This document shows, in pieces, positions 16,815 through 33,279 of a DNA stretch of 64,000 nt. Each line of letters begins with the position of its first letter. Position 1 is the first letter of the stretch. The stretch is from Rhodohalobacter sulfatireducens. GTDB lineage: Bacteria; Bacteroidota; Rhodothermia; Balneolales; Balneolaceae. The position numbers and the translations under genes are program-made. The notes beneath the pieces are model-generated. The model saw only the letters and a program-made list of their open reading frames with translations. It did not search any database and was not told the DNA's origin. The stretch spans positions 434,001-498,000 of the forward strand of contig NZ_JAKLWS010000001.1 of the NCBI RefSeq assembly GCF_022012475.1, in the 5' to 3' direction.

Positions 16815-19271
16815 ATGGAGAAAAATATGAATCAGATATCGAAACCCTACATCATATGGTTTTCTGAAATTGGAATGGATGATGTCCCGATTGTTGGCGG
16901 AAAGAATGCTTCACTCGGTGAGATGACGAGGCACCTTACAAAAGAAGGAATTTCCGTACCTGACGGATTTGCCACAACGGCCGATGCCTACTGGGAATTT
17001 ATCCACTCTAATAAACTTGAGCCAGCAATTGAAAATGTAATTACAGCATATCAAAACGGGGAAGTAGAACTCAAAGAAGCGGGCCGTACATTACGGCAGA
17101 TGTTTCTTAAGAGTACCTTTCCCACTCCGTTGGCTGAAGGGATTCAGGAAGCATATAAAATTTTAAGTAAAAAATATCAGAACGGCACTCCAAAACTGTC
17201 GGAAGATTTTTCTGTTAACGTGGCAGTACGAAGTAGTGCCACGGCCGAAGATCTGCCCCATGCAAGTTTTGCAGGACAGCAGGAAACATACCTGAATGTA
17301 AACGGGCCCGACGACCTGATGAATGCCTGTAAAAATTGTTTTGCATCGCTATTTACCGATCGAGCAATTACCTATCGCGAGAAGATGGGATTTGACCATA
17401 TGAAAGTAGCCCTGTCGATAGGAGTGCAAAAAATGGTTCGGCCTGATGAAAGCTGTTCGGGGGTCATGTTCACTGTAGATACAGAAACCGGCTTTCCGAA
17501 AGCGATTGTGATTACAGGATCCTGGGGGCTTGGTGAAACAGTTGTGAAAGGAACGGTAAACCCTGATCAGTTTTACGTATTTAAACCACATTTGAACAAT
17601 TTGGACTACAAACCGATCATTGAGAAATCTCTGGGCTCAAAAGAGGTAAAAATGATCTATGCGAGTGAGAAAGGTAAAAATACAGCTGTAGTACCCACAG
17701 ATATTACTGAGAGGGATAAGTTTGTACTTAGTGACGATGAAATTCTAACACTTGCGCGTTGGGGACTTACCATTGAAAACCATTACCAAAAAGCGATGGA
17801 TATTGAATGGGTGAAAGAGGATGAAACCCAAAAACTCTACATTTTACAGGCCCGACCTGAGACGGTTCATTCAACATTAGAAAATGGGCTTTTTAAATCT
17901 TATAAACTGAAGCCGGGTAAACATAATATTCTTGTTAAAGGGGTGAGCATTGGCAGTAGTATTTCAACCGGAAAGGCGAAAGTTATACGCGATGCCACAG
18001 ATTTAAAAGGTATCGATGAAAATACGATTTTGGTAACCGAAATGACCGAACCGGATTGGGTTCCGGCTATGAAGCGTGCTTCGGGTATTGTAACGGATTT
18101 TGGAGGACGCACCTGCCATGCAGCTATTGTAAGCCGTGAGCTGAGTATTCCCGCTGTTGTGGGAACGGGGAATGCGACAAAAACCCTTAAAGACGGACAA
18201 GAGATCACTCTGTCAAGTGCAGAAGGGGATGCCGGCTATGTATATGAAGGTCAACTCGAATTCGATATTTATGAAACTGACCTTTCTGATCTGCCGGATC
18301 CAAAAACCAACGTGATGCTAAACCTGGCCACACCCGAATCTGCATTTAAGTGGTGGAAACTGCCTGTGAAAGGGATCGGGCTTGCGCGTATGGAGTTCAT
18401 CATCAGTAATCACATAAAAATTCACCCGATGGCATTGGTTCACCCCGACCGAATTGACAACGAGGAGGAGTTCAGGAAAATCAGGAAGCTAACGGCCGGT
18501 TACAGCGATTTGAAGCAATACTTTGTGGATCGGCTGGCAAGTGGTATATCAAAAATTGCAGCCTCCCAATATCCTAAACCGGTAATTGTACGTACAAGTG
18601 ATTTTAAAACCAATGAATATGCCGGTTTGATTGGCGGACAGCATTTCGAACCTCATGAAGAAAACCCGATGCTTGGATGGCGCGGTGCATCGAGATATTA
18701 CAGCGAGGGATATCGCGAGGGTTTTGAACTGGAGTGCAGGGCCCTGAAGAAAGTAAGAGAAGAGATTGGGTTGGACAATGTGATTGTGATGATACCATTC
18801 TGCAGAACACTGAATGAAGCGGAGAAAGTTCTAAACGTAATGGCGGACAACGAACTCAAACGGGGTGAAAAAGGCCTTCAAATTTATATGATGTGTGAAA
18901 TTCCTTCGAACTATATTCTGGCAAATCAGTTTGCAAAGTTGTTCGATGGATTTTCTATCGGATCAAACGATCTAACACAGTTAATCTTGGGAGTAGACCG
19001 GGATTCGAGTGAGATGGCTCACCTTTTCAGTGAAAATGATGAAGCTGTAAAAACAGCTATAAGAGAGGTGATTGAACGAGTTCATGAGGCAGATACCCCG
19101 GTTGGATTTTGCGGCCAGGCACCCAGTGACAATCCTGAATACGCTGCATTCCTGGTGAAATGCGGAATAGATTCTATCTCGGTTGTGCCGGACAGTGTAA
19201 TCGATGTGATACAAAAAGTGAAAGATGCAGAAACAAGTTCAAAAGAGGATTTGGAGTATCAAATAACATGA
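16815..19271 (+). CDS. ppsA: Phosphoenolpyruvate synthase (pyruvate, water dikinase)
   Basis: The enzyme converts pyruvate, ATP and water to PEP, AMP and phosphate, feeding gluconeogenesis. The 818-residue protein has the N-terminal ATP-binding domain (GGKNASLGEM near residue 27; VAVRSSATAEDLPHASFAGQQ), a central phosphohistidine domain with GGRTCHAAIVSREL, where His435 is the expected phospho-carrier, and a C-terminal PEP/pyruvate barrel. The barrel has SIGSNDLTQL and GFCGQAPSDNPEYAAFLVKCGI, including the catalytic Cys. An ATG at 16827, four codons in with GGAG correctly spaced, is an alternative start. Inside a stress island it may serve carbon salvage when glycolysis stops. Confidence 0.95.
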   Translation: MEKNMNQISKPYIIWFSEIGMDDVPIVGGKNASLGEMTRHLTKEGISVPDGFATTADAYWEFIHSNKLEPAIENVITAYQNGEVELKEAGRTLRQMFLKSTFPTPLAEGIQEAYKILSKKYQNGTPKLSEDFSVNVAVRSSATAEDLPHASFAGQQETYLNVNGPDDLMNACKNCFASLFTDRAITYREKMGFDHMKVALSIGVQKMVRPDESCSGVMFTVDTETGFPKAIVITGSWGLGETVVKGTVNPDQFYVFKPHLNNLDYKPIIEKSLGSKEVKMIYASEKGKNTAVVPTDITERDKFVLSDDEILTLARWGLTIENHYQKAMDIEWVKEDETQKLYILQARPETVHSTLENGLFKSYKLKPGKHNILVKGVSIGSSISTGKAKVIRDATDLKGIDENTILVTEMTEPDWVPAMKRASGIVTDFGGRTCHAAIVSRELSIPAVVGTGNATKTLKDGQEITLSSAEGDAGYVYEGQLEFDIYETDLSDLPDPKTNVMLNLATPESAFKWWKLPVKGIGLARMEFIISNHIKIHPMALVHPDRIDNEEEFRKIRKLTAGYSDLKQYFVDRLASGISKIAASQYPKPVIVRTSDFKTNEYAGLIGGQHFEPHEENPMLGWRGASRYYSEGYREGFELECRALKKVREEIGLDNVIVMIPFCRTLNEAEKVLNVMADNELKRGEKGLQIYMMCEIPSNYILANQFAKLFDGFSIGSNDLTQLILGVDRDSSEMAHLFSENDEAVKTAIREVIERVHEADTPVGFCGQAPSDNPEYAAFLVKCGIDSISVVPDSVIDVIQKVKDAETSSKEDLEYQIT

Positions 19272-20870: not shown

Positions 20871-22505
20871 ATGAGTCATAAAAGGTTATTATTCAGAGAA
20901 CAGGCACGTGAAAAAGTACTTAGAGGAGCTACCCAACTATATGATTCTGTTCGGGTAACGTTGGGGCCAAAATCAAAATCAGTACTGATCGAAAAAAAAT
21001 GGGGACATCCTATCGTCTGTAACGACGGGGTAACCATTGCAAAAGAACTGACACTCAAAGATCCCGATGAAAATTTGGGTGTTCAGGTTTTAAAAGAGGC
21101 GGCTGAACGAACCGGGGAAGTGGTGGGCGACGGCACTTCTACATCAACCATTCTTGCTTACTCTCTCTATTCGGAAGGCCTTAGAAATGTGGCGGCACGA
21201 GCCAGTTCCATCGAATTGAAACGGGGAATTGAGATCGGGATGAAGACAGCCATCGAATCCCTTAAAAAACTATCCAAGCCGATTGTTGAAAAAATTGAGA
21301 TGGCACAGGTAGCTTCCATTTCAGCTCATAACATCGAAAATATCGGGAACCTGGTGGCCGATGCCGTGGAAAAAGTGGGGCCTGAAGGTGTGATAACAGT
21401 TGAGGAAGCAAAAGGAATGGAAACCACTCTTGAAGTTGTGGAGGGAATGCAGTTCGATAGGGGGTATCTTTCCGCCTATTTTATTACCGATCCGCAGAAA
21501 ATGGAAGCCATTTTAGATAATCCTGTGATCTTGCTGGTGGATCGAAAAATCAGTGTGCTAAAAGATCTTCTTAACTTTTTAGAAGAGGTGGCCAATCAAC
21601 AAAAATCGGTTGTCATCATTGCCGAAGATGTGGATGGCGAAGCACTGACCAGCCTTGTTGTGAATAAATTGCGCGGCGTTTTGAGTTGTGTAGCTGTAAA
21701 AGCTCCCGGTTTTGGCGATCGGAGAAAAGAGATGTTGAAAGATATCGCGATACTTGTAGGGGCTGATTTGGTCTCAGAAGAGAAAGGGATGAAGCTGACA
21801 GATGCTAGTTTTGATGTACTGGGAAATGCCGAGCGGGTGATTGTAGGAAAAGATACCACAACCATTATCGGCGGTCGTGGAGAACCGGATGCTATTAAAA
21901 ACCGGTGTGATGAGATTCGTCATCAGATGGAGGAAACCGCCTCCGATTACGACAAAGAAAAGCTGCAGGAACGCCTTGCAAGACTTTCCGGCGGAGTGGC
22001 CGTGATACGTGTTGGGGCACCTTCGGAAACTGAATTAAAAAGCTTAAAAGAGGCGTTTGATGATGCCATCAGCGCAACCAAAGCAGCCGTGGAAGAGGGA
22101 ATTGTTCCGGGAGCGGGTCTTGCACTCATCAAAACTATTTCTGCAGTAGAGAAAGAAGCGGCCAAATATGATGGTGATGTGCGAACCGGTATAATGACTT
22201 TACGCAGGGCCCTTGAAGCACCCTCACGTCAAATCGCTGAAAACTCGGGAATGGACCCTGGGGTGGTGGTCGAAAAGATGAGGGCCGGAAAAGGAAACAT
22301 GGGATTCGACGGATCCACCAATCAATATGTAAACTTGTTTGAACACGGAATTATCGACCCGACAAAAGTGGTACGGGTAGCACTGGAAAATGCCGTTTCC
22401 GTAGCGAGTGTTCTGCTGCTTACGGAAGCCACGATGACAGATATCGAAGAACCAGAAGCCGGTAAATCTCACACAAGTGATTATGGAGGGGATTTTGGGG
22501 AATAA
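20871..22505 (+). CDS. groEL: Secondary GroEL-type chaperonin (Cpn60) without a GroES partner
   Basis: The 544-residue group I chaperonin has the ATP-site signatures VTLGPKSKSVLIEKKWG, CNDGVTIAKEL and GDGTSTSTI (canonical GDGTTTAT, so Thr-to-Ser changed), and AAVEEGIVPGAG later on. The C-terminal tail is DYGGDFGE and lacks the Gly-Gly-Met repeats of housekeeping GroEL. No groES gene lies nearby; upstream is an outer-membrane protein and downstream an ion pump. It is therefore likely an accessory copy specialised for certain clients or for stress. The housekeeping groESL is expected elsewhere in the genome. Confidence 0.93.
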   Translation: MSHKRLLFREQAREKVLRGATQLYDSVRVTLGPKSKSVLIEKKWGHPIVCNDGVTIAKELTLKDPDENLGVQVLKEAAERTGEVVGDGTSTSTILAYSLYSEGLRNVAARASSIELKRGIEIGMKTAIESLKKLSKPIVEKIEMAQVASISAHNIENIGNLVADAVEKVGPEGVITVEEAKGMETTLEVVEGMQFDRGYLSAYFITDPQKMEAILDNPVILLVDRKISVLKDLLNFLEEVANQQKSVVIIAEDVDGEALTSLVVNKLRGVLSCVAVKAPGFGDRRKEMLKDIAILVGADLVSEEKGMKLTDASFDVLGNAERVIVGKDTTTIIGGRGEPDAIKNRCDEIRHQMEETASDYDKEKLQERLARLSGGVAVIRVGAPSETELKSLKEAFDDAISATKAAVEEGIVPGAGLALIKTISAVEKEAAKYDGDVRTGIMTLRRALEAPSRQIAENSGMDPGVVVEKMRAGKGNMGFDGSTNQYVNLFEHGIIDPTKVVRVALENAVSVASVLLLTEATMTDIEEPEAGKSHTSDYGGDFGE

Positions 22506-22530
22506 TCCCGTTCTGTTGGAGAATCAAAAA

Positions 22531-25251
22531 ATGGGAAATGAAACAACAGGTTCAGTTAACCATCAACCCTGGAGTATTTCTTTTGAAGAGGCTCTACAAA
22601 ACCTGGATTCAAATCAGCAGGGCGGATTAACGAGTCAAGAGGTTACCAAAAGGCTTTCAAAATTCGGTAAAAATAAACTAAGAGAGTATAAAAAGAAGTC
22701 CATTTTTGAAATCATTGCCGACCAGTTTAAAAGCCTGATCATCCTGCTTTTGGTGGTTGCGGCAGTCTCGTCTTTTCTCTTTGGGGAATACCTCGATGGA
22801 TGGGCCATTTTGGTTGTTGTGTTGATCAGTGCAATGATAGGATTCATAACGGAGCTTCGTGCTGTTCGGTCGATGGAAGCTCTATACAAATTGGGCCACG
22901 TACAGACAAGAGTCCTGCGTAATGGGAAGGTAAGTCTCGCAGATGCAGAGACACTTGTTCCCGGCGATATCGTACTGCTTGAGGGCGGAGATGTAGTTAC
23001 AGCCGATCTTCGCATTCTCGAAAGTTCAAGACTCCAGGCAGATGAATCCGTGCTGACGGGTGAAAGTCTCCCGGTGAGTAAGGAAATTGAGCCGCTCTCC
23101 TCCGAAACCGTCCTGGCCGAACGAAACAATATGCTCTACAAAGGAACGGCTATTACTCGCGGTTCAGGAAAAGCAGTAGTGGTGAGCACGGGAATGGAAA
23201 CGGAACTGGGAGCCATCTCCGAACTTGTACAGGGTGCCGATGACGAGAAAACTCCTCTTGAAGAGAGGCTCAATAAACTTGGGAACAAACTAATTTGGGT
23301 AACGCTTGGCATTGCATCCGTAATAACAATCACTGGGATCTACACAGGCCGGGAGATCATTTTTATGATTCAGACCGGGGTGGCACTGGCCGTTGCAACT
23401 ATTCCGGAAGGATTGCCGGTTGTAGCAACCATTGCACTAGCAAATGGGGTGAAAACGATGGCCGGGAAAAACGCCTTAATCACTCGTCTCTCCTCGGTTG
23501 AAACACTTGGGTCAACACAAGTCATTTTTACGGATAAAACGGGTACGCTTACCGAAAACAGGATGACTGCACAGAGTTACCTGCTGCCGTCAGGAGAAGT
23601 TTCAGTAAGTGGAAATCAGGACCAGGATAAAAAGGGATTGTCTGATAACCCAATCTTAAAGGATGTGCTGGAGACCGGTATTTTGTGCAACAATGCTACA
23701 CTTACAGATCTCGAAAATGTAAAAGGTTCCGGCGATCCGCTCGAAATTGCTCTATTGGCTGCAGCCGAGAATTTTGGGATCTCTGTTGAATCGGTTCGGA
23801 ATGAATACCCCGAAGAAAGAGAAGAGGCGTTTGATGCTGAAGCAAAAATGATGGCTACTTGGAATTCCATTGGCGAAGGTACATATCGGGTACATGTAAA
23901 AGGGGCACCGGATGCTGTTTTGCGATCATGCAACTCCGTGTATGCCAACGGTTCAACAAAACCGATGGCTGAAACCGAAAGAGAAGAATGGATCGAAAAG
24001 AATAATCAGTTAGCCGCTCAAGGGTTGAGGATGATTGCGTTTGCTCAAAAAGACGTGTCATCAACAGACGGGAATCCATACGAAACCCTGGCGTTTACCG
24101 GACTGGTAGGGCTGTTGGATCCGCCTCGATCGGATGTGAAGCAAGCCATAGAAAACTGCAAGAGGGCCGGTATTAATGTGGTGATGGTGACCGGTGACCA
24201 GGAGCATACAGCTCGATACATAGCCAATGAAATCGGAATTGAATCCGATCCGAATGCAAATGTGGTGCACGGCCGCGACCTGGCAAAAATGGATATCAAG
24301 AAACTCTCAAACGAGGGAAAAAGATCACTCTTGGAAACCACGGTTTTTGCCCGAATCAGCCCGGCGCAAAAGTTAAGCCTGATCGATCTGTTCCAGGCAA
24401 ATAACCGCACCGTGGCAATGACGGGTGATGGAGTGAATGATGCCCCCGCACTGAAATCGGCGGATATCGGAATTGCAATGGGCCGGCGTGGGTCACAGGT
24501 TGCCCGCGAAGCGGCAGACATGATATTAACGGATGATGCCTTCTCCTCCATCGTCACAGCCATTGAACAGGGTCGCATCATCTTCACCAATATTCGAAAA
24601 TTTGTTTATTATCTGATGAGTTGTAATGTGAGCGAGGTAACGGTCATTGCGCTTTCATTTGTGGTAGGTTCTCCACTTCCGATATTACCCCTCCAGATCT
24701 TGTTTTTGAATTTAGTGACGGATGTGTTTCCGGCTCTCGCTTTAGGGCTGGGCGAAGGAGAAAAACAGATCATGAGAGAGCCGCCCAGAAAACGGCAGGA
24801 ACCCATTCTAACGAACCAGCTTTGGTTTGGAATTGCCGGTTACGGAGCTTTGATTTCAATGGCCGTAATGGCAACGTTATTTGTTGGTATGAAGGTAATG
24901 AACCTCCCGGTGGCTGAAGCAGTAACACTCTCGTTTTTAACCTTGGCCTTTGCCCAGCTTTGGCATGTGTTTAATATGCGTGGAGATCGATCAAGCATTG
25001 TTGATAATACGATTATTAACAATCGTTTTGTTTGGGGAGCTATTGTTCTATCTGCCGGGTTAATTCTTGCAGCTGTCTATATTCCTTCACTTGCAAATGT
25101 ACTCTCGATTCATCCGCCTGCATTCAATGGCTGGGCTGTTGTTCTGATATTTAGCCTGGTTCCCATTGTAGCTGGAGAGTTAATTCGATTAGTTTTCAAC
25201 AATCACCATCAAGCAGGGATCACTCCCACCCTTAAACAATCAGAAGCCTGA
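22531..25251 (+). CDS. P-type Ca2+-transporting ATPase (P2A type)
   Basis: This is an ATP-driven cation pump of about 906 residues in the inner membrane. The phosphorylation motif DKTGTLTE (Asp335 counted from 22531), TGES loop (VLTGESLPVSKE) and hinge MTGDGVNDAPAL are intact. Transport-site motifs follow SERCA/PMR1: ATIPEGLP in M4, NVSEV in M5 and NLVTDVFPALALG in M6. The M8 position carries Gln rather than Glu, which points to a single Ca2+ (or Mn2+) site as in PMR1. The frame is open upstream to a GTG at 22477 inside groEL; ATG 22531 with GGAG at 22518-22521 was preferred. It directly precedes the N-ATPase operon. Confidence 0.92.
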   Translation: MGNETTGSVNHQPWSISFEEALQNLDSNQQGGLTSQEVTKRLSKFGKNKLREYKKKSIFEIIADQFKSLIILLLVVAAVSSFLFGEYLDGWAILVVVLISAMIGFITELRAVRSMEALYKLGHVQTRVLRNGKVSLADAETLVPGDIVLLEGGDVVTADLRILESSRLQADESVLTGESLPVSKEIEPLSSETVLAERNNMLYKGTAITRGSGKAVVVSTGMETELGAISELVQGADDEKTPLEERLNKLGNKLIWVTLGIASVITITGIYTGREIIFMIQTGVALAVATIPEGLPVVATIALANGVKTMAGKNALITRLSSVETLGSTQVIFTDKTGTLTENRMTAQSYLLPSGEVSVSGNQDQDKKGLSDNPILKDVLETGILCNNATLTDLENVKGSGDPLEIALLAAAENFGISVESVRNEYPEEREEAFDAEAKMMATWNSIGEGTYRVHVKGAPDAVLRSCNSVYANGSTKPMAETEREEWIEKNNQLAAQGLRMIAFAQKDVSSTDGNPYETLAFTGLVGLLDPPRSDVKQAIENCKRAGINVVMVTGDQEHTARYIANEIGIESDPNANVVHGRDLAKMDIKKLSNEGKRSLLETTVFARISPAQKLSLIDLFQANNRTVAMTGDGVNDAPALKSADIGIAMGRRGSQVAREAADMILTDDAFSSIVTAIEQGRIIFTNIRKFVYYLMSCNVSEVTVIALSFVVGSPLPILPLQILFLNLVTDVFPALALGLGEGEKQIMREPPRKRQEPILTNQLWFGIAGYGALISMAVMATLFVGMKVMNLPVAEAVTLSFLTLAFAQLWHVFNMRGDRSSIVDNTIINNRFVWGAIVLSAGLILAAVYIPSLANVLSIHPPAFNGWAVVLIFSLVPIVAGELIRLVFNNHHQAGITPTLKQSEA

Positions 25252-25422: not shown

Positions 25423-27260
<1,838 letters not shown>

Positions 27261-27272
27261 CGAAAGAGAGCT

Positions 27273-27578
27273 GTGATGTCGGAACAGGAAAACCAACAGA
27301 AATCGGAAGAATTTGCGGAAAAAATCCAGGAGAAGTCTACGAGAAAAATCAAGGCTCGAAATGAGAAGCATAAAGGCCTGTGGTATGGGTTGGGGATGTT
27401 CGGGTTGGTTGGATGGTCTGTCAGTATCCCAACTCTGCTTTTCCTGGTATTGGGTATATGGATCGACAGCATCTATAAGAGTCCCTATTCATGGACATTG
27501 ATGATGTTGGTCCTGGGCATTTTTATCGGATGCATGAATGCATGGTATTGGGTAAAGAACGAAAGTAAAAGCGGGTAG
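27273..27578 (+). CDS. atpQ: N-ATPase accessory protein AtpQ (AtpI-like)
   Basis: The 101-residue protein has a charged N-terminal helix (about 1-45) and two membrane segments (about 46-66 and 72-92). The AtpI-type signature LGIWIDSIYKSPYSWTLMMLVLGIFIGCMNAWYWV is clear. AtpI-like proteins help assemble the c-ring. The position after atpC matches N-ATPase operons. In those operons atpR normally comes next; here an antiporter gene intervenes. Confidence 0.85.
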   Translation: MMSEQENQQKSEEFAEKIQEKSTRKIKARNEKHKGLWYGLGMFGLVGWSVSIPTLLFLVLGIWIDSIYKSPYSWTLMMLVLGIFIGCMNAWYWVKNESKSG

Positions 27579-27582
27579 ATAA

Positions 27583-28806
27583 ATGGAAAGTATCATTGCC
27601 ACATATATCCTCTTTGTTGGCTTGATCATTGTGATCTCCATCTTCATCAAATACGGGTTCGACCGGATCGGGCTGCCGGCACTTCTTGGATATTTTGCAT
27701 TGGGAATCATCGCAAAATACCTTGACAATACATTTTCCTTTTTGAATCAAGAGGGAATCGAGATTATCGAGTTTTTGGCGGATCTTGGAATTATCGCACT
27801 GCTACTGAAGATCGGACTGGAAAGTAAACTTTCGCGCTTGATCAAGCTGTTACCGAAAGCGTCAATTATTTGGGTTGGGGATGTTCTAATCAGCGGAGCG
27901 GTTGGATTTTTAACCTCCTATTACCTTATCGGTTGGGAAATAATTCCCAGTCTGTTTGTAGCTACTGCATTTACCGCTACAAGTGTAGGCATTTCTGCTA
28001 ATGTATGGGATGAGATGGGAGCCATAAAGTCAGACACCGGCCAAACGCTGCTGGATGTTGCCGAAATGGATGATATCTCCGGCATTTTGCTAATGGGTAT
28101 TCTCTTTTCAATCGCGCCTGTTTTGCTGGGCGAGGGCGCAGGGTTACCGGGAGTTCAAATACTAACAACGGTGGGTGTTTTTTTGCTGAAGCTCACCTTG
28201 TTCGGATTGATATGCGTTCTGTTTTCGAGATTTATTGGTGAACAGCTGATCGAAACTCTGAACAAACTGCATGGTGGTAAAAGCAGGATATTGGTTGTAG
28301 TTGGCATCGGGTTGATGGCTGCGGCGATCTCTACTCTATTAGGATTTTCGTTTGCGATCGGTGCTTTTTTGATCGGAGTATTGCTCAGCAGTAACCCGTC
28401 GAAAGTAAAAATGGATTCATCATTTGAAGCGTTGTATGCACTGTTTGTGCCCTTTTTCTTCATCAACATTGGCATGAATGTGGATCTTTCGGCTCTTTTT
28501 TCAATCGAGATGTCACTTCTTTTATTGATAGCGGCTGCATTCATCGGGAAATTTTTGGGTGCCGGCCTTGGAACCTGGGTAAGTCTCGGCCTCAGTTATT
28601 CTACAGTGATAGGGTTGAGCATGATACCGAGGGCAGAAATTTTTCTGATTATTATGAAGCGCGGGCTGGATATGGGAGAGTGGGCGGTAACTGCAGAGAT
28701 GTTTACGTACGCCGTTGTCATCTCCACCCTGTCGGTCATTATCGTTCCGCTTTTATTAAAAAACATATTAAACAAAAGGGAGGTTACAGATGGAGGAAAA
28801 CATTAA
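27583..28806 (+). CDS. CPA2-type cation:proton antiporter embedded in the N-ATPase operon
   Basis: The 407-residue protein is almost entirely hydrophobic, with about 11-13 membrane segments. It carries monovalent cation:proton antiporter-2 hallmarks: FTATSVGIS in the unwound helix, the acidic pair Asp163-Asp164 in VAEMDDISGIL (the DD motif of electrogenic exchangers) and IPRAEIFLIIM with the conserved basic residue late in the protein. It has no C-terminal TrkA-N or USP domain. Its start lies 4 bases after the atpQ stop, and its end overlaps atpR by 17 bases, so it is an integral part of the operon. It probably exchanges Na+ or K+ for H+. It is not one of the nine standard N-ATPase genes. Confidence 0.9.
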   Translation: MESIIATYILFVGLIIVISIFIKYGFDRIGLPALLGYFALGIIAKYLDNTFSFLNQEGIEIIEFLADLGIIALLLKIGLESKLSRLIKLLPKASIIWVGDVLISGAVGFLTSYYLIGWEIIPSLFVATAFTATSVGISANVWDEMGAIKSDTGQTLLDVAEMDDISGILLMGILFSIAPVLLGEGAGLPGVQILTTVGVFLLKLTLFGLICVLFSRFIGEQLIETLNKLHGGKSRILVVVGIGLMAAAISTLLGFSFAIGAFLIGVLLSSNPSKVKMDSSFEALYALFVPFFFINIGMNVDLSALFSIEMSLLLLIAAAFIGKFLGAGLGTWVSLGLSYSTVIGLSMIPRAEIFLIIMKRGLDMGEWAVTAEMFTYAVVISTLSVIIVPLLLKNILNKREVTDGGKH

Positions 28807-29104
28807 CTGGTGGATCTATATACTGGCAATATTCGGCGGTGCTTTGCTAAGCGTAATCTATTTCTTTGGCTTATGGGTTACGGTTCAAAAAATCACAAAT
28901 TTAAACAAATACTACTACCTGGTATTACTCTTAAGTTTTTTGGCCCGGGTTACGATTACTCTTATCGGTTTCTACTTCATCTTGATGCTTGGCTGGGTAC
29001 CCACCCTGCTGGCTTTATTGGCTTTCATTATTACGCGGCAGGTTGTAGTCCGTAAAATCGGTACGCCTTCTTCACTTCAAACAATGAAAGAATATGGAAA
29101 TTAA
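28790..29104 (+). CDS. atpR: N-ATPase accessory membrane protein AtpR
   Basis: The 104-residue protein has three predicted membrane segments (about 8-30, 42-62 and 66-86). Its position immediately before atpB and its length match AtpR, a protein found only in N-ATPase operons and suggested to bind or assemble the c-ring. The start lies inside the antiporter gene (17-base overlap) with GGGAGG well placed before the ATG. The end overlaps atpB by 11 bases. Confidence 0.8.
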   Translation: MEENINWWIYILAIFGGALLSVIYFFGLWVTVQKITNLNKYYYLVLLLSFLARVTITLIGFYFILMLGWVPTLLALLAFIITRQVVVRKIGTPSSLQTMKEYGN

Positions 29105-29807
29105 TATCGATCAAATAATATACTGGGAATGGGGGTTCATAAAGCTAAATGCTACACTCGTTTATTCATGGGCGGTTATGGTGGTTCTTGTATCCATCTC
29201 GTGGTTTGTAAGCAGAGATTTGACGGAGGGAACGGGAATCTCCCGGAAACAAGCATTGATAGAATCGCTTGTTGTGGTTATTCAAAAACAGATTGAAGAA
29301 ACCACGCAGGAAAAAACGGACCGGTATTTGCCGTTTATTGGTACACTCTTTCTGTTCATCCTGGTATCAAATTTGATCAGTGTCATTCCGGGAGTGTATC
29401 CGCCAACAGCTTCTCTTTCTACAACAGCGGCATTGGCAATATCAGTTTTTGTAGCTGTTCCCATTTTTGGGATAGGTTCGAGGGGAGTAAAAAGTTATTT
29501 CGAGAATTATGTAAAACCCACACCGTTGATGCTGCCCTTCAACATCATTGGTGAGCTTTCGCGTACATTGGCACTGGCCGTCAGGTTGTTTGGAAATATT
29601 ATGAGCGGGAGCCTGATCGTGGCGATTTTGCTCGGTTTGAGTCCGCTATTCTTCCCCGTTGTGATGCAGGCATTTGGGTTGCTGATCGGTGTCATCCAAG
29701 CCTATGTATTTGCCATTTTGGCACTGGTTTATATCGCATCAGCATCCAGAATTCACAATAGTGAGGAAGCTGATTCAACAGAAATTATTAACCCTCAAAA
29801 TAGATGA
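29094..29807 (+). CDS. atpB: N-ATPase Fo subunit a
   Basis: The 237-residue Fo stator has the conserved helix LSRTLALAVRLFGNIMSG, whose Arg faces the c-ring carboxylate, and the C-terminal IQAYVFAILALVYIASA. Together with AtpE it forms the ion path. The start overlaps the atpR end by 11 bases. The length and lack of a long N-terminal extension match N-type a subunits. Confidence 0.94.
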   Translation: MEINIDQIIYWEWGFIKLNATLVYSWAVMVVLVSISWFVSRDLTEGTGISRKQALIESLVVVIQKQIEETTQEKTDRYLPFIGTLFLFILVSNLISVIPGVYPPTASLSTTAALAISVFVAVPIFGIGSRGVKSYFENYVKPTPLMLPFNIIGELSRTLALAVRLFGNIMSGSLIVAILLGLSPLFFPVVMQAFGLLIGVIQAYVFAILALVYIASASRIHNSEEADSTEIINPQNR

Positions 29808-29810
29808 ATT

Positions 29811-30080
29811 ATGGAAAGTATCAGCATTATTGGAATGGTATCCATTATAACAGCAGGAGTAACCATTGCCGTGGGTTCCATTGCGCCGGCAATTGGGGAA
29901 GGAAAGGCACTGGCCCAGGCATTATTGGCCATTGCCCAGCAACCGGATGAGATTCCAACTATCACTCGGACGCTTTTTGTAGGCCTTGCAATGGTTGAAT
30001 CGACAGCAATCTACTGTTTTGTGGTTGCCCTGATCCTGATTTTTGCAAACCCATTTTGGAATTACGTAATCCAGGTTTGA
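29811..30080 (+). CDS. atpE: N-ATPase Fo subunit c with sodium-type ligands
   Basis: The 89-residue two-helix protein forms the rotor ring. Helix 1 contains GSIAPAIGEGKALAQAL and helix 2 contains LAMVESTAIYCF. Aligned with the Ilyobacter Na+ ring, Glu63, Ser64, Thr65 and Tyr68 match Glu65, Ser66, Thr67 and Tyr70, and Glu30 stands where Gln32 lies. Two carboxylates per subunit are typical of N-ATPase c subunits. The set suggests Na+ binding, but some N-type rings with similar motifs may use H+, so specificity remains open. It starts 4 bases after atpB. Confidence 0.95.
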   Translation: MESISIIGMVSIITAGVTIAVGSIAPAIGEGKALAQALLAIAQQPDEIPTITRTLFVGLAMVESTAIYCFVVALILIFANPFWNYVIQV

Positions 30081-30081
30081 T

Positions 30082-30852
30082 ATGGAGATTAATTGGTTCA
30101 CATTTACAGCACAGATTGTCAACTTCCTGATTTTAATCTGGCTGCTGAAACGTTTTTTGTATACACCTCTTCAAAATGTGATGAAGAACAGGGAGGACGA
30201 GGTGTTGTCTCGGCTGGAAGAAGCCCGCCAAAAATTGGTTCAGGCCGAAGAGATGTCTAAAGAATACCGGGAAAAGATGGATCAACTGGAGGAACAAAAA
30301 GAGGAATGGCTTGAAGAGGCAAAAAAAGAAACCGAATCATTCAGGAAAGAGCTTTTGCAGACCGCCCGAAACGAAGTAGATGCCATTCACGCGAAATGGA
30401 TGAAAGCGATAAAGTCAGAGAAGAGATCTTTGATGGAGGCCCTGGAACGGCAATCTGTTCAAAAAATACTTTCCATCGTCGAAAAGATTGTGATTGATCT
30501 CTCAGACACCGAACTGGAGCAGCAGACCATAAAACGATTCCTGGAAAAGATCAAAGCAAAAGATGAAGAGGGTAAAACTCAACTCGAGAAGATTCGGTCA
30601 GAAAAAGAGATCGAAATCGTTTCATCCTTTCCACTTAAAAAGGCAGACCGAGAAAAAATTGATATAGTGATTTCGGGAATGTTCTCGGATCAAACCATAT
30701 ACAATTACACAACGGATCCTGATCTGGGATTCGGTATTGAACTCCAATCGAACGGGTGGAAACTGGGATGGAATATGAAGATGTATCTAAACGAATTGAG
30801 ATCGGAAGTGGATACTCTCCTGGATCAGACATTTCAAAGCAAGAGTGAATGA
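30082..30852 (+). CDS. atpF: N-ATPase peripheral stalk subunit b with delta-like C-terminus
   Basis: The 256-residue protein is about 100 residues longer than a standard b subunit. Residues 5-28 form the membrane anchor and about 35-140 a charged coiled coil (RLEEARQKLVQAEEM). The last 80 residues contain EIEIVSSFPLKKADREKI and YTTDPDLGFGIELQSNGWK, which resemble the C-terminal strand region of subunit delta (the DPxLxGGIxI pattern). No separate delta gene is present in the operon, so this fusion probably supplies delta function. It overlaps atpA by 8 bases. Confidence 0.88.
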   Translation: MEINWFTFTAQIVNFLILIWLLKRFLYTPLQNVMKNREDEVLSRLEEARQKLVQAEEMSKEYREKMDQLEEQKEEWLEEAKKETESFRKELLQTARNEVDAIHAKWMKAIKSEKRSLMEALERQSVQKILSIVEKIVIDLSDTELEQQTIKRFLEKIKAKDEEGKTQLEKIRSEKEIEIVSSFPLKKADREKIDIVISGMFSDQTIYNYTTDPDLGFGIELQSNGWKLGWNMKMYLNELRSEVDTLLDQTFQSKSE

Positions 30853-32392
30853 ATCCAAAATGGAAGATGCATTACTACATACAATAACCGAAAATGTTCT
30901 GAACGTATTAGACAGGCTCAGTGAGAAAAGTCCGGGATTTCAACTCCGGGAGTTCGGCACAGTCAAATCCGTAGGTGAAGGTTTTGCGAGAGTAGACGGA
31001 CTTCCAAACGCCGGTATGGATGAACTTGTAATTTTTGAGGGTGGCGAGCCGGGGCTTATTTACAACCTCGACGAACATGAAGTGGGCGTAATTCTCCTAG
31101 ATGAAGAGAAAAATATTGAAGCGGGAGATGAAGTCTACCGAACCCATTCGGTGTTGAGCGTTCCGGTGGATGAGCAGATGTTGGGCCGGGTTTTGGATCC
31201 GTTAGGGCGTTCACTGGATGGTAAAAAACCTCTTCCTTCGAGTGAGAGGTACCCGGTTGAAAGGCCGGCACCGCCCATTATGCACAGGATTTCGGTAGAG
31301 GTTCCCCTGCAAACAGGAATCAAAATTATTGATGCGCTCTTCCCGATTGGCCGGGGTCAGCGGGAGTTAATTTTAGGAGATCGGCAAACCGGGAAAACAG
31401 CAATAGCTGTAGATACCATCATCAATCAGTCTGATAAAAATGTAATTTGTATCTACTGTGCTATAGGGAAGCAGAAAGCCTCCATTGCAAGAGTGATTGC
31501 AGATCTTCGGAAATTCAATGCAATGGACTATTCCATTGTTGTTTCAGCGAGCAGTGAAGATCCGGTAGGATTGCAATTCATTGCTCCATACGCTGCTACA
31601 AGCATGGGCGAATATTTTATGGAGCGTGGACACGATGTATTGATTGTTTATGATGATCTGACCTGGCATGCGCGAGCCTATCGGGAATTGGCATTACTGC
31701 TGCGTCGTCCGCCGGGCCGTGAAGCATACCCGGGTGATATCTTCTATATCCACTCGCGTCTCCTGGAGCGATCCACCCGGCTGAAGCCTGAATATGGGGG
31801 CGGATCACTCACTGCATTGCCCATCATAGAAACACAGGCACAAAACATTTCGGCCTTCATTCCAACCAACCTGATTTCAATCACTGACGGTCAGCTATAT
31901 CTATCGCAGGAGCTGTTCAGGAAAGATATCCTGCCGGCTGTTGATGCGGGTAAATCCGTATCAAGAGTGGGTAGTGCGGCTCAATTGCCTTCCTATCGTT
32001 CGGTTACCAAAAAACTGCGACTCTCTTACGCTCAATTTGAAGAACTTGAAAGTTTTTCCCGGTTTAGTTCCCGGCTTGATGAGGAGACTCAGGCTACCAT
32101 CGATCGTGGAAGACGTATTCGTGAAGTTTTAAAACAGCCGCAGTTTGAACCGTTAAGTGCGGAAGAACAAATTATCATTTTATTGGCAGAGACAAACGGG
32201 TTGCTGGATGGAATTCCCCCCGCAGACATTGAAGATGCAGAGAAGAGAATTTTGATGAAGGTGAGAGAGAACTCAGGCCTGATCAAGAAAATTGACTGGC
32301 ACAGAAGCCTGGAAGAAGAGGATAAAGAGAAGTTACTGGAATTAGCTGAATCAGCTTTAAATACTGAAAGTGAAAAGAGATGCAACGATTAG
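30845..32392 (+). CDS. atpA: N-ATPase F1 subunit alpha
   Basis: The 515-residue non-catalytic nucleotide-binding subunit has P-loop GDRQTGKT at residues 178-185, DDLTWHARAYRELALLLRRPPGREAYPGDIFYIHSRLLER, and the arginine-finger region SVSRVGSAAQ. Membrane attachment to the peripheral stalk goes through its N-terminus. The start overlaps atpF by 8 bases and the end overlaps atpG by 13 bases. Confidence 0.95.
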   Translation: MNESKMEDALLHTITENVLNVLDRLSEKSPGFQLREFGTVKSVGEGFARVDGLPNAGMDELVIFEGGEPGLIYNLDEHEVGVILLDEEKNIEAGDEVYRTHSVLSVPVDEQMLGRVLDPLGRSLDGKKPLPSSERYPVERPAPPIMHRISVEVPLQTGIKIIDALFPIGRGQRELILGDRQTGKTAIAVDTIINQSDKNVICIYCAIGKQKASIARVIADLRKFNAMDYSIVVSASSEDPVGLQFIAPYAATSMGEYFMERGHDVLIVYDDLTWHARAYRELALLLRRPPGREAYPGDIFYIHSRLLERSTRLKPEYGGGSLTALPIIETQAQNISAFIPTNLISITDGQLYLSQELFRKDILPAVDAGKSVSRVGSAAQLPSYRSVTKKLRLSYAQFEELESFSRFSSRLDEETQATIDRGRRIREVLKQPQFEPLSAEEQIIILLAETNGLLDGIPPADIEDAEKRILMKVRENSGLIKKIDWHRSLEEEDKEKLLELAESALNTESEKRCND

Positions 32393-33279
32393 AGCAGCTA
32401 CAACGAAAGCTAAAAAATGCTGAAGATCTGAGATCTGTGGTTCACACGATGAAGATTATGTCTGCCGTTGAGATCTATCAGTTTGAGGAGGCGGTTGAAT
32501 CGCTGCGTGATTATTTTGACACCATTGAAATGGGGATGCAGGTTGTTTTAAAAAAGGTGTTTGAAGAGACCCCTGCACCCCTGTTTTCAACAGAGACCGA
32601 AAAAGAGGGGTGGCTGATTTTAGGCTCCGGCCAGGGCCTGTGTGGTTCATTCGATAAAGTTATTGCTGATTTTATTCATCAAAAGAAGACGGAGGGAGCG
32701 AATTCCCGAGTTCAAATCTACACTTGTGGTGAACGTTTGGGCGACCTGTTGATGAAGGATGGTTTTACAATCGACAAGAAGTTTGAAATGCCGGGTTCAG
32801 TAAGTGGAATTATTGGGTTGGTACTTGAACTGATATCGGGAATAGAACACTGGCAGATGGAATTGAATATTCAAACTGTAAGAGTTTTCCATAACCAACC
32901 CACGCAAAAAAGAGGATTTGTCCCGATTTTTCAAAATTTACTGCCTCCCAAAACAGCCTGGATGAATCGCATCAAAGAGAAAAAATGGCCTACCAATAAA
33001 CTCCCTCAATTTAAGATCGATTCCGGTGTTCTTTTTCAGAAACTATTGCGGCAGTACCTGTTTGTGTCATTGTATCGTGCAGTAGCTGAATCGTTAGCGG
33101 CAGAATATAGCAGCCGTTTATTGGCAATGCAGCGTGCCGAACAAAAAATTGATGAACGTCTTGAACAGCTGAAACAATCCTATTCAACCGAAAGACAATC
33201 AGCCATTACAGAGGAATTGTTGGATATCATTGCGGGTTTTGAGGCTATTCAGTCCAGGGAAAAAGAGATCATGGAATGA
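32380..33279 (+). CDS. atpG: N-ATPase F1 subunit gamma
   Basis: The 299-residue central rotor shaft has two long terminal helices (about 1-60 and 230-299) around a Rossmann-like middle with LGSGQGLCGSFDKVIADF. The N-terminus (LRSVVHTMKIMSA) is recognisable as gamma, but the protein is divergent from housekeeping gamma, as expected for N-type enzymes. It is the last gene of the operon. No clear terminator is seen directly after it. Confidence 0.92.
   Translation: MQRLEQLQRKLKNAEDLRSVVHTMKIMSAVEIYQFEEAVESLRDYFDTIEMGMQVVLKKVFEETPAPLFSTETEKEGWLILGSGQGLCGSFDKVIADFIHQKKTEGANSRVQIYTCGERLGDLLMKDGFTIDKKFEMPGSVSGIIGLVLELISGIEHWQMELNIQTVRVFHNQPTQKRGFVPIFQNLLPPKTAWMNRIKEKKWPTNKLPQFKIDSGVLFQKLLRQYLFVSLYRAVAESLAAEYSSRLLAMQRAEQKIDERLEQLKQSYSTERQSAITEELLDIIAGFEAIQSREKEIME

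Follow-up and report, generated by a model that had tools for sequence, protein, structure and literature searches.

Sequence comparisons indicate that a gene for a putative Na+/H+ antiporter, located between atpQ and atpR of an N-ATPase operon, is a real and recurrent accessory gene of such operons with a plausible function. We refer to this open reading frame, which encodes a PF00999 antiporter, as X, and to the whole 64-kb stretch of DNA that was analysed as the window. With confidence slightly above even, we propose that X encodes a NapA-type antiporter, electrogenic and selective for Na+, and that Na+-type N-ATPase operons have recruited it several times, and in some lineages retained it, as an accessory gene in the atpQ-atpR slot, where it would work together with the pump. 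N-ATPases are thought to pump ions rather than to make ATP, and both Na+ and H+ types exist.

The window contains a complete N-ATPase operon (25438-33279) with the gene order D-C-Q-X-R-B-E-F-A-G (Table 1), in which X and all the subunit genes are complete. The N-ATPase operon was reportedly described by Dibrova and colleagues in 2010 as atpDCQRBEFAG. The operon of the window shares with it the nine genes including atpR, their order, the Na+ motif, and the presence as a second ATPase beside an F-ATPase, but adds a tenth gene, that of the Na+/H+ antiporter, between atpQ and atpR. When the subunits were compared with the alternate F1F0 (N-type) models, alpha, gamma, a, b, c, and epsilon scored above the curated cut-offs, atpD scored slightly below the cut-off of the beta model, and AtpR was below the cut-off of TIGR03165 but above that of PF12966. 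Profile searches revealed no separate delta subunit encoded by any of the ten genes. The canonical F-ATPase delta subunit (PF00213) was found once in the genome, on another contig, indicating that the N-ATPase is a second enzyme. The c subunit contains a second Glu in helix 1 and the motif ESTAIY in helix 2, and the parts of two papers available to us give ESTxxY as the Na+ motif of c subunits (PMC6688271, PMC9927469). Judging from this motif, the pump is probably of the Na+ type, in line with the Na+ gradient that the first-pass annotation ascribed to it.

Table 1. Features of the N-ATPase operon and of its upstream neighbourhood in the window
Feature	Position	Strand	Basis or remark
PEP synthase relative	16815-19271		
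GroEL-like gene	20871-22505		3' end overlaps assigned start of P-type cation ATPase gene
P-type cation ATPase	22477-25251		precedes atpD
atpD, N-ATPase beta subunit	25438-26868	+	PF00006; best NCBIfam TIGR03305 (alternate F1F0 beta), 738.5 bits vs cut-off 752
atpC, epsilon subunit	26865-27260	+	PF02823; TIGR03166 above cut-off
atpQ	27273-27578	+	PF09527; TIGR02230 above cut-off
X, NapA-like Na+/H+ antiporter (predicted), 407 aa	27583-28806	+	PF00999 E=9.1e-46; NapA 4bwz E=6.1e-31
atpR	28790-29104	+	PF12966 E=3.4e-15; TIGR03165 under cut-off, 45.9 vs 55.5
atpB, a subunit	29094-29807	+	PF00119; TIGR03306 above cut-off
atpE, c subunit	29811-30080	+	TIGR03322 above cut-off; ESTAIY in sequence
atpF, b subunit	30082-30852	+	PF00430; TIGR03321 above cut-off
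atpA, alpha subunit	30845-32392	+	TIGR03324 above cut-off
atpG, gamma subunit	32380-33279	+	TIGR03323 above cut-off

The start of X, an ATG in the list of open reading frames, is fixed because an in-frame TAA lies immediately 5' of this codon. The position of the antiporter frame between atpQ and atpR, its length of 407 residues, the 4 bases between the end of atpQ and the start of X, and the overlap of the last 17 bases of X by atpR had all been given correctly by the first-pass annotation. A GGGAGG box is located within X, 6 bases 5' of the atpR ATG. On contig C50, X occupies positions 461583-462803. The GC content of X (0.44) and that of its third codon positions (0.488) are both inside the operon range, and thus gave no sign of a recent arrival from DNA of differing composition. 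Predicted promoters and terminators were no more numerous than in shuffled DNA (16 vs 20.5 and 12 vs 12.6), and Rfam gave no match above the gathering score within the window.

The match of X to PF00999 spans residues 17-397 and covers profile positions 2-374 of 375 with 156.8 bits against a cut-off of 26.2. The solved structures nearest to X by sequence are those of NapA from Thermus thermophilus, followed by KefC. X and NapA (4bwz, 5bz2) are 28-29% identical over 378-381 residues, and Asp163, Asp164, and Lys323 of X align with the aspartate pair and the lysine of NapA. The AlphaFold model of X, built with 35 aligned relatives, has a mean pLDDT of 88.5 and is predicted to adopt the NapA fold. 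When this model was compared with known folds, inward-facing NapA (5bz2) gave a Z score of 45.3 with an rmsd of 2.9 over 381 aligned residues, followed by a sea-urchin exchanger as the next entry (Z 34.8), and NapA 4bwz gave a Z score of 31.7. The aspartate pair, which the first-pass annotation had noticed as a DD motif, is present in TM5, and it is accompanied by the lysine in TM10 and by a TM4 motif with a non-polar fourth residue (A132-T133-S134-V135). In an alignment of 84 X sequences, which leaves out more distant same-class relatives such as L059, both aspartates are invariant, positions 132-135 read ATSV, ATSI, ATSL, or ATSM in every sequence, and Lys323 is present in all 82 sequences with that column filled. 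The whole signature was also found in 32 of the 32 in-operon members examined. It is not universal in the wider family, since L059 (29% identity) has Asn-Asp and no lysine. The portion of PMC6181914 available to us links the two aspartates and the lysine of CPA2 proteins with electrogenic transport, and Na+ selectivity with a non-polar fourth residue of the TM4 motif. The residues found in X thus speak for electrogenic exchange as in NapA and NhaA. The first-pass annotation had called X a CPA2 antiporter; family, predicted fold, and active-site residues bear out a cation/proton antiporter, but the NCBIfam model of CPA2 (TIGR00932, E=1.7e-34) gave only 119.6 bits against a cut-off of 238.3. Because this score is under the curated cut-off, we call X NapA-like on its residues and fold and do not assign it to TIGR00932. 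A C-terminal nucleotide-binding (RCK) domain of the Kef type is absent, PF00999 being the only domain in the 407 residues.

The arrangement is not confined to this genome, as the slot is also filled in other phyla and on a plasmid of Acaryochloris. Gene-order analysis of the 80 listed among 123 confirmed X relatives from GTDB species genomes, for which slot counts are lower bounds, placed X directly between atpQ and atpR in at least 22 loci from several phyla, and thus answered the question raised by the first-pass annotation whether other N-ATPase operons carry the gene. At least seven of the listed relatives show cut or interrupted versions of the slot (two with X-R at a contig end, three with C-Q-X and no R in the locus, and two with Q-X and extra genes before R), and in at least four X lies near but outside the N-ATPase operon. 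In a further 47 of the 80, the fetched locus contains no N-ATPase gene, a class that takes in contigs ending near X. Going by record titles, the in-slot hosts include members of Cyanobacteria (Rivularia, Richelia, Mastigocoleus, Acaryochloris, Leptolyngbyaceae, and Prochloraceae), of Pseudomonadota (Tenderia and the alphaproteobacteria Henriciella and Marinicaulis), and of Zixibacteria, Desulfobacteraceae, Syntrophobacterales, Calditrichota, KSB1, and the anammox planctomycete Loosdrechtia (Planctomycetota); in a Nitrospirota host (L131), X is split over two frames. Since a homologue occupies the same slot in other phyla, the placement of X in the operon is not chance. The carriers Mastigocoleus testarum, Henriciella, and Marinicaulis are recorded as strains and not as MAGs, and binning errors therefore do not explain X in the slot. 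The repeated filling of this slot in unrelated bacteria points to recurrent pairing of pump and exchanger by cells.

When plasmids were searched with X by tblastn, the best match was pMB02 of Acaryochloris sp. 'Moss Beach' (41.9% identity), a complete plasmid whose annotated operon has the antiporter in the same slot. A search of plasmids with the Moss Beach X gave one partial match besides itself, and a comparison of match listings for 18 plasmid records with an AtpQ match showed that Moss Beach alone has the antiporter listed under the match. The atpA frame of pMB02 is in three pieces with no atpA gene listed (L053:12472-14015), and atpA is in one frame in two other Acaryochloris genomes (L101, L111). 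No X relatives were confirmed in viral contigs.

X is rare yet widely scattered. In the sample from the phylum of the window, 28 of 394 genomes, that of the window included, have AtpR above its Pfam cut-off; the corresponding counts are 17 of 244 for the phylum of a cyanobacterial carrier and 32 of 247, 14 of 299, and 10 of 149 for three further phylum samples. Among 83 classified operons sampled regardless of X, a set that leaves out the window and four genomes picked as X carriers, atpQ lies beside atpR in 81, one has an intact X (L197/L266), and one, from the cyanobacterial sample, has a truncated X of 87 residues between atpQ and atpR (L163/L255, L255:6879-7172). X is thus absent or truncated in 82 of the 83, which agrees with the view of the first-pass annotation that it is not a standard N-ATPase gene. 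Three AtpR matches without a locus (G871, G854, and one of G483) remained unclassified. Classification of 99 loci left 12 undecided: in seven, Q lies outside the locus, and in five, a group that may include ordinary F-ATPases, the HMM did not detect R. L014, which is among the 12, has adjacent Q and R and was scored accordingly. The remnant in L255 retains an 8-base overlap with atpQ and is apparently a decaying copy.

X relatives were also sought nearer to the window. Matches with E values up to 1e-20 occur in 17 of the 394 phylum-sample genomes including that of the window, and 57 other relatives of the window genome, 27 of them from the same genus, have a single, distant match at this threshold (30%). 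The best matches in the phylum sample come from a single further family within the class (37-42%, and one more at 31%), and none of the matches in that family was found in the Q-R slot. In G364, a member of the same class, the X relative (42%, L054:12579-14033) is separated by about 1.5 kb from the upstream atpG of an N-ATPase operon with adjacent atpQ and atpR. In two gammaproteobacterial operons (L133, L134), an X relative directly follows atpG, atpR is not detectable, and the c subunits are not of the ESTxxY type.

To trace X among the operons, we used a concatenated tree of D, B, E, and A from 71 operons, in which the window groups with X-less operons of its own family. The nearest operon is 74% identical, and the set of five rows has an SH-aLRT support of 100%. 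The presence of X changes nine times on this tree, and at least five of these changes are forced by well-supported branches, although the tree does not tell gain of X from loss. When the 21 in-slot operons were constrained to one clade, a single origin was rejected with a p-AU of 2.8e-88, a value that is surely too small because a quick tree was used. For the window, the simplest reading is a gain, since none of the other seven operons in its family clade carries X; X was probably gained in the lineage of the window, with repeated loss as the alternative. X appears to have been retained within several groups, namely Mastigocoleus/Rivularia/Richelia, Acaryochloris/Leptolyngbyaceae, Zixibacteria/Calditrichota/Loosdrechtia, and Henriciella/Marinicaulis. 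In the tree of X itself, the window X is an unplaced deep branch, and the deep part of that tree is unreliable owing to long rows (paralogues, L293, L059). We also considered that atpQ and atpR had arrived together with X from an X-bearing operon, and found no support for this. All window subunits compared, Q and R among them, are closest overall to the X-less operons of the family: the median identity of Q is 69% to these operons versus 51% to X-bearing operons elsewhere, and that of R is 39% versus 28%, with the best single values of R in a near tie (43% versus 40%).

The junctions of X in other operons are tight. In 19 of 26 in-slot loci, which do not include the window, atpQ and X overlap by 8 bases, and in 22 of 26 the gap between X and atpR is between -8 and +6 bases; the gaps were measured from the start codon closest to the stop before it, a choice biased towards short distances. 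The spacings of the window are -17 for X-R and +4 for Q-X, the latter differing from the common -8. The motif ESTxxY is present in all 26 distinct in-slot c subunits, including those of cut and interrupted loci, compared with 53 of 82 X-less ones, of which one without a readable motif was scored as not ESTxxY (Fisher p 9e-5). On independent tree pairs, however, no association between X and the Na+ motif was found (5 pairs, p=1), and X may thus go weakly with the Na+-type pump. Where X lies away from an N-ATPase, 12 of 43 loci (those without an N-ATPase gene among 50 loci examined) are from genomes with AtpR elsewhere, versus 101 of 1333 phylum-sample genomes, a comparison that ignores relatedness and completeness and that counts G445, whose AtpR operon has its own X (L085).

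Other genes also enter the slot. In Kineobactrum sediminis, it holds a PF00999 antiporter from a different subfamily (L293:4730-5971), and in Waterburya agarophytonicola a P-type cation ATPase of 930 residues lies between X and atpR (L085:3368-6178). By eye, we also found two opposite-strand genes between Q and R in L290, one membrane protease-like and one of the rhodanese type, and a TnpB-like gene in L108; L298 has a small gene there with a match to DUF6163 slightly under the cut-off. Because genes of these kinds, in part on the non-coding strand of the operon, are also seen between atpQ and atpR, occupancy of the slot is not by itself proof of coupling. A bolder reading, which we put forward tentatively and regard as possible though rather doubtful, is that the atpQ-atpR junction is a plug-in site into which lineages independently insert different cation transporters, mostly X and others in Kineobactrum and Waterburya, so that a Na+ pump is made together with a transporter that spends or supplements its gradient, perhaps assembled adjacently.

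The neighbourhood of the operon in the window resembles what we infer to be a stress or low-oxygen island. Upstream lie genes for a PAS histidine kinase, a LuxR-type regulator, a short-chain dehydrogenase, PEP synthase, a GroEL-like protein, and a P-type cation ATPase, and downstream lie those for a DUF892 protein and a large membrane protein that by eye resembles MMPL/RND transporters. Many unrelated genomes have relatives of the PEP synthase in one locus with an N-ATPase operon or an X gene (L243-L248, L053, L054, L079, L084, L093, L110, L112, L253, L285), and such relatives are present at six of the seven X-less operons of the family of the window. A role in fermentation or anoxia was proposed for an Acaryochloris plasmid bearing such a Na+-ATPase operon, according to the part of that paper available to us (PMC8949462).

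How X may work with the pump can be outlined as follows. The N-ATPase would hydrolyse ATP, export Na+, and build up a membrane potential, and X, made from the same operon, would use this potential, taking up more H+ than it expels Na+. Together, pump and X would convert ATP into Na+ export plus H+ uptake, and the pair may guard the cell against salt and excess alkalinity of the cytoplasm when the potential is not available from respiration. Electrogenic exchangers of the NapA/NhaA kind normally export Na+ and import H+; the first-pass annotation had left the direction open and had supposed a single transcript with a fixed ratio of pump to exchanger. This mode is favoured because the residues of X are of the electrogenic type and the pump is of the Na+ type; co-transcription, the transported ion, the stoichiometry, the direction, and the physiological setting are what we infer for the pair. 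The same gene content would also permit X to run backwards on a large Na+ gradient made by the pump, admitting Na+ and expelling H+, so that the pair would pump protons at the expense of ATP and rebuild the proton gradient in anoxia. The presence of sensor kinases and PEP synthase near the N-ATPase both in the window and in the Acaryochloris plasmid, together with the anoxic role proposed in what we could consult of PMC8949462 for that kind of plasmid, points in this direction, but an antiporter that moves more than one H+ per Na+ would be expected to oppose the potential built by the pump, and we regard this reverse coupling as quite unlikely.

It is also conceivable, though on balance unlikely, that X is uncoupled from the pump and sits at a permissive Q-R junction for the sake of a promoter or through island shuffling. 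The other material between Q and R (L290, L108, L298) and the five or more changes of X presence on the tree are consistent with such a passenger, while the repeated use of the same antiporter subfamily on the coding strand with tight overlaps argues against it, as does the fact that two other in-slot inserts, the P-type cation ATPase of L085 and the PF00999 protein of L293, are cation transporters as well. If X were instead a Kef-like K+/H+ antiporter that balances K+ while the pump moves Na+, its below-cut-off matches to the KefC and KefB models and its matches to KefC structures would be explained; however, X has no C-terminal nucleotide-binding domain, its motif is ATSV and not LSST, it has Asp-Asp with Lys, and its sequence and fold are nearest to NapA, making this reading very improbable. 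The genome is in 138 contigs (5.1 Mb), which leaves room for an assembly artefact or a chimeric bin, but completeness is 100 and contamination 0.4, X lies inside the continuous 64-kb window with a GC content within the operon range, and the same arrangement is seen in strain records and a complete plasmid; we give such an error hardly any weight.

The nearest precedent that we found is the ntp operon of Enterococcus hirae, which encodes a Na+ V-type ATPase together with the K+/Na+ transporter NtpJ, as stated in the part of PMC9945522 available to us. Like the operon of the window, it combines the genes of a rotary Na+-ATPase with one for a secondary cation transporter, but the ATPase is of the V type, the transporter belongs to the KtrII family, and ntpJ is the last gene and does not lie between subunit genes. 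NapA of Thermus thermophilus is not known to be part of an ATPase operon. A public annotation of the Q-antiporter-R arrangement exists, namely the Acaryochloris 'Moss Beach' plasmid, where the antiporter lies between a gene of the AtpZ/AtpI family and that of subunit I, which equals Q-X-R as in the window. The portion of the text of PMC8949462 available to us does not mention the antiporter in the plasmid Na+-ATPase operon, although the gene map in its Fig. 3B, which is of another strain, may show one. ProAD recognises N-ATPases by two extra genes between epsilon and a, according to an excerpt of its paper (PMC11738941). The accessible parts of PMC7784846, PMC11738941, PMC3468840, PMC12342949, PMC4154653, PMC5376962, PMC6688271, PMC12903955, PMC9927469, PMC8620254, PMC8949462, PMC3543383, and PMC8115632 make no mention of an in-operon antiporter, and we found no description of an antiporter gene in an N-ATPase operon in the open-access literature outside figures, supplements, and the 2010 paper of Dibrova and colleagues.

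A Na+/H+ antiporter acquired repeatedly amid Na+-type operons would be an independent clue that the output of the N-ATPase includes Na+/H+ exchange and pH control. The operon would also join the enterococcal ntp operon as a second example of rotary Na+-ATPase genes grouped with a secondary transporter of their own. Through this one gene, the role of Na+/H+ exchange in N-ATPase physiology is made directly testable.
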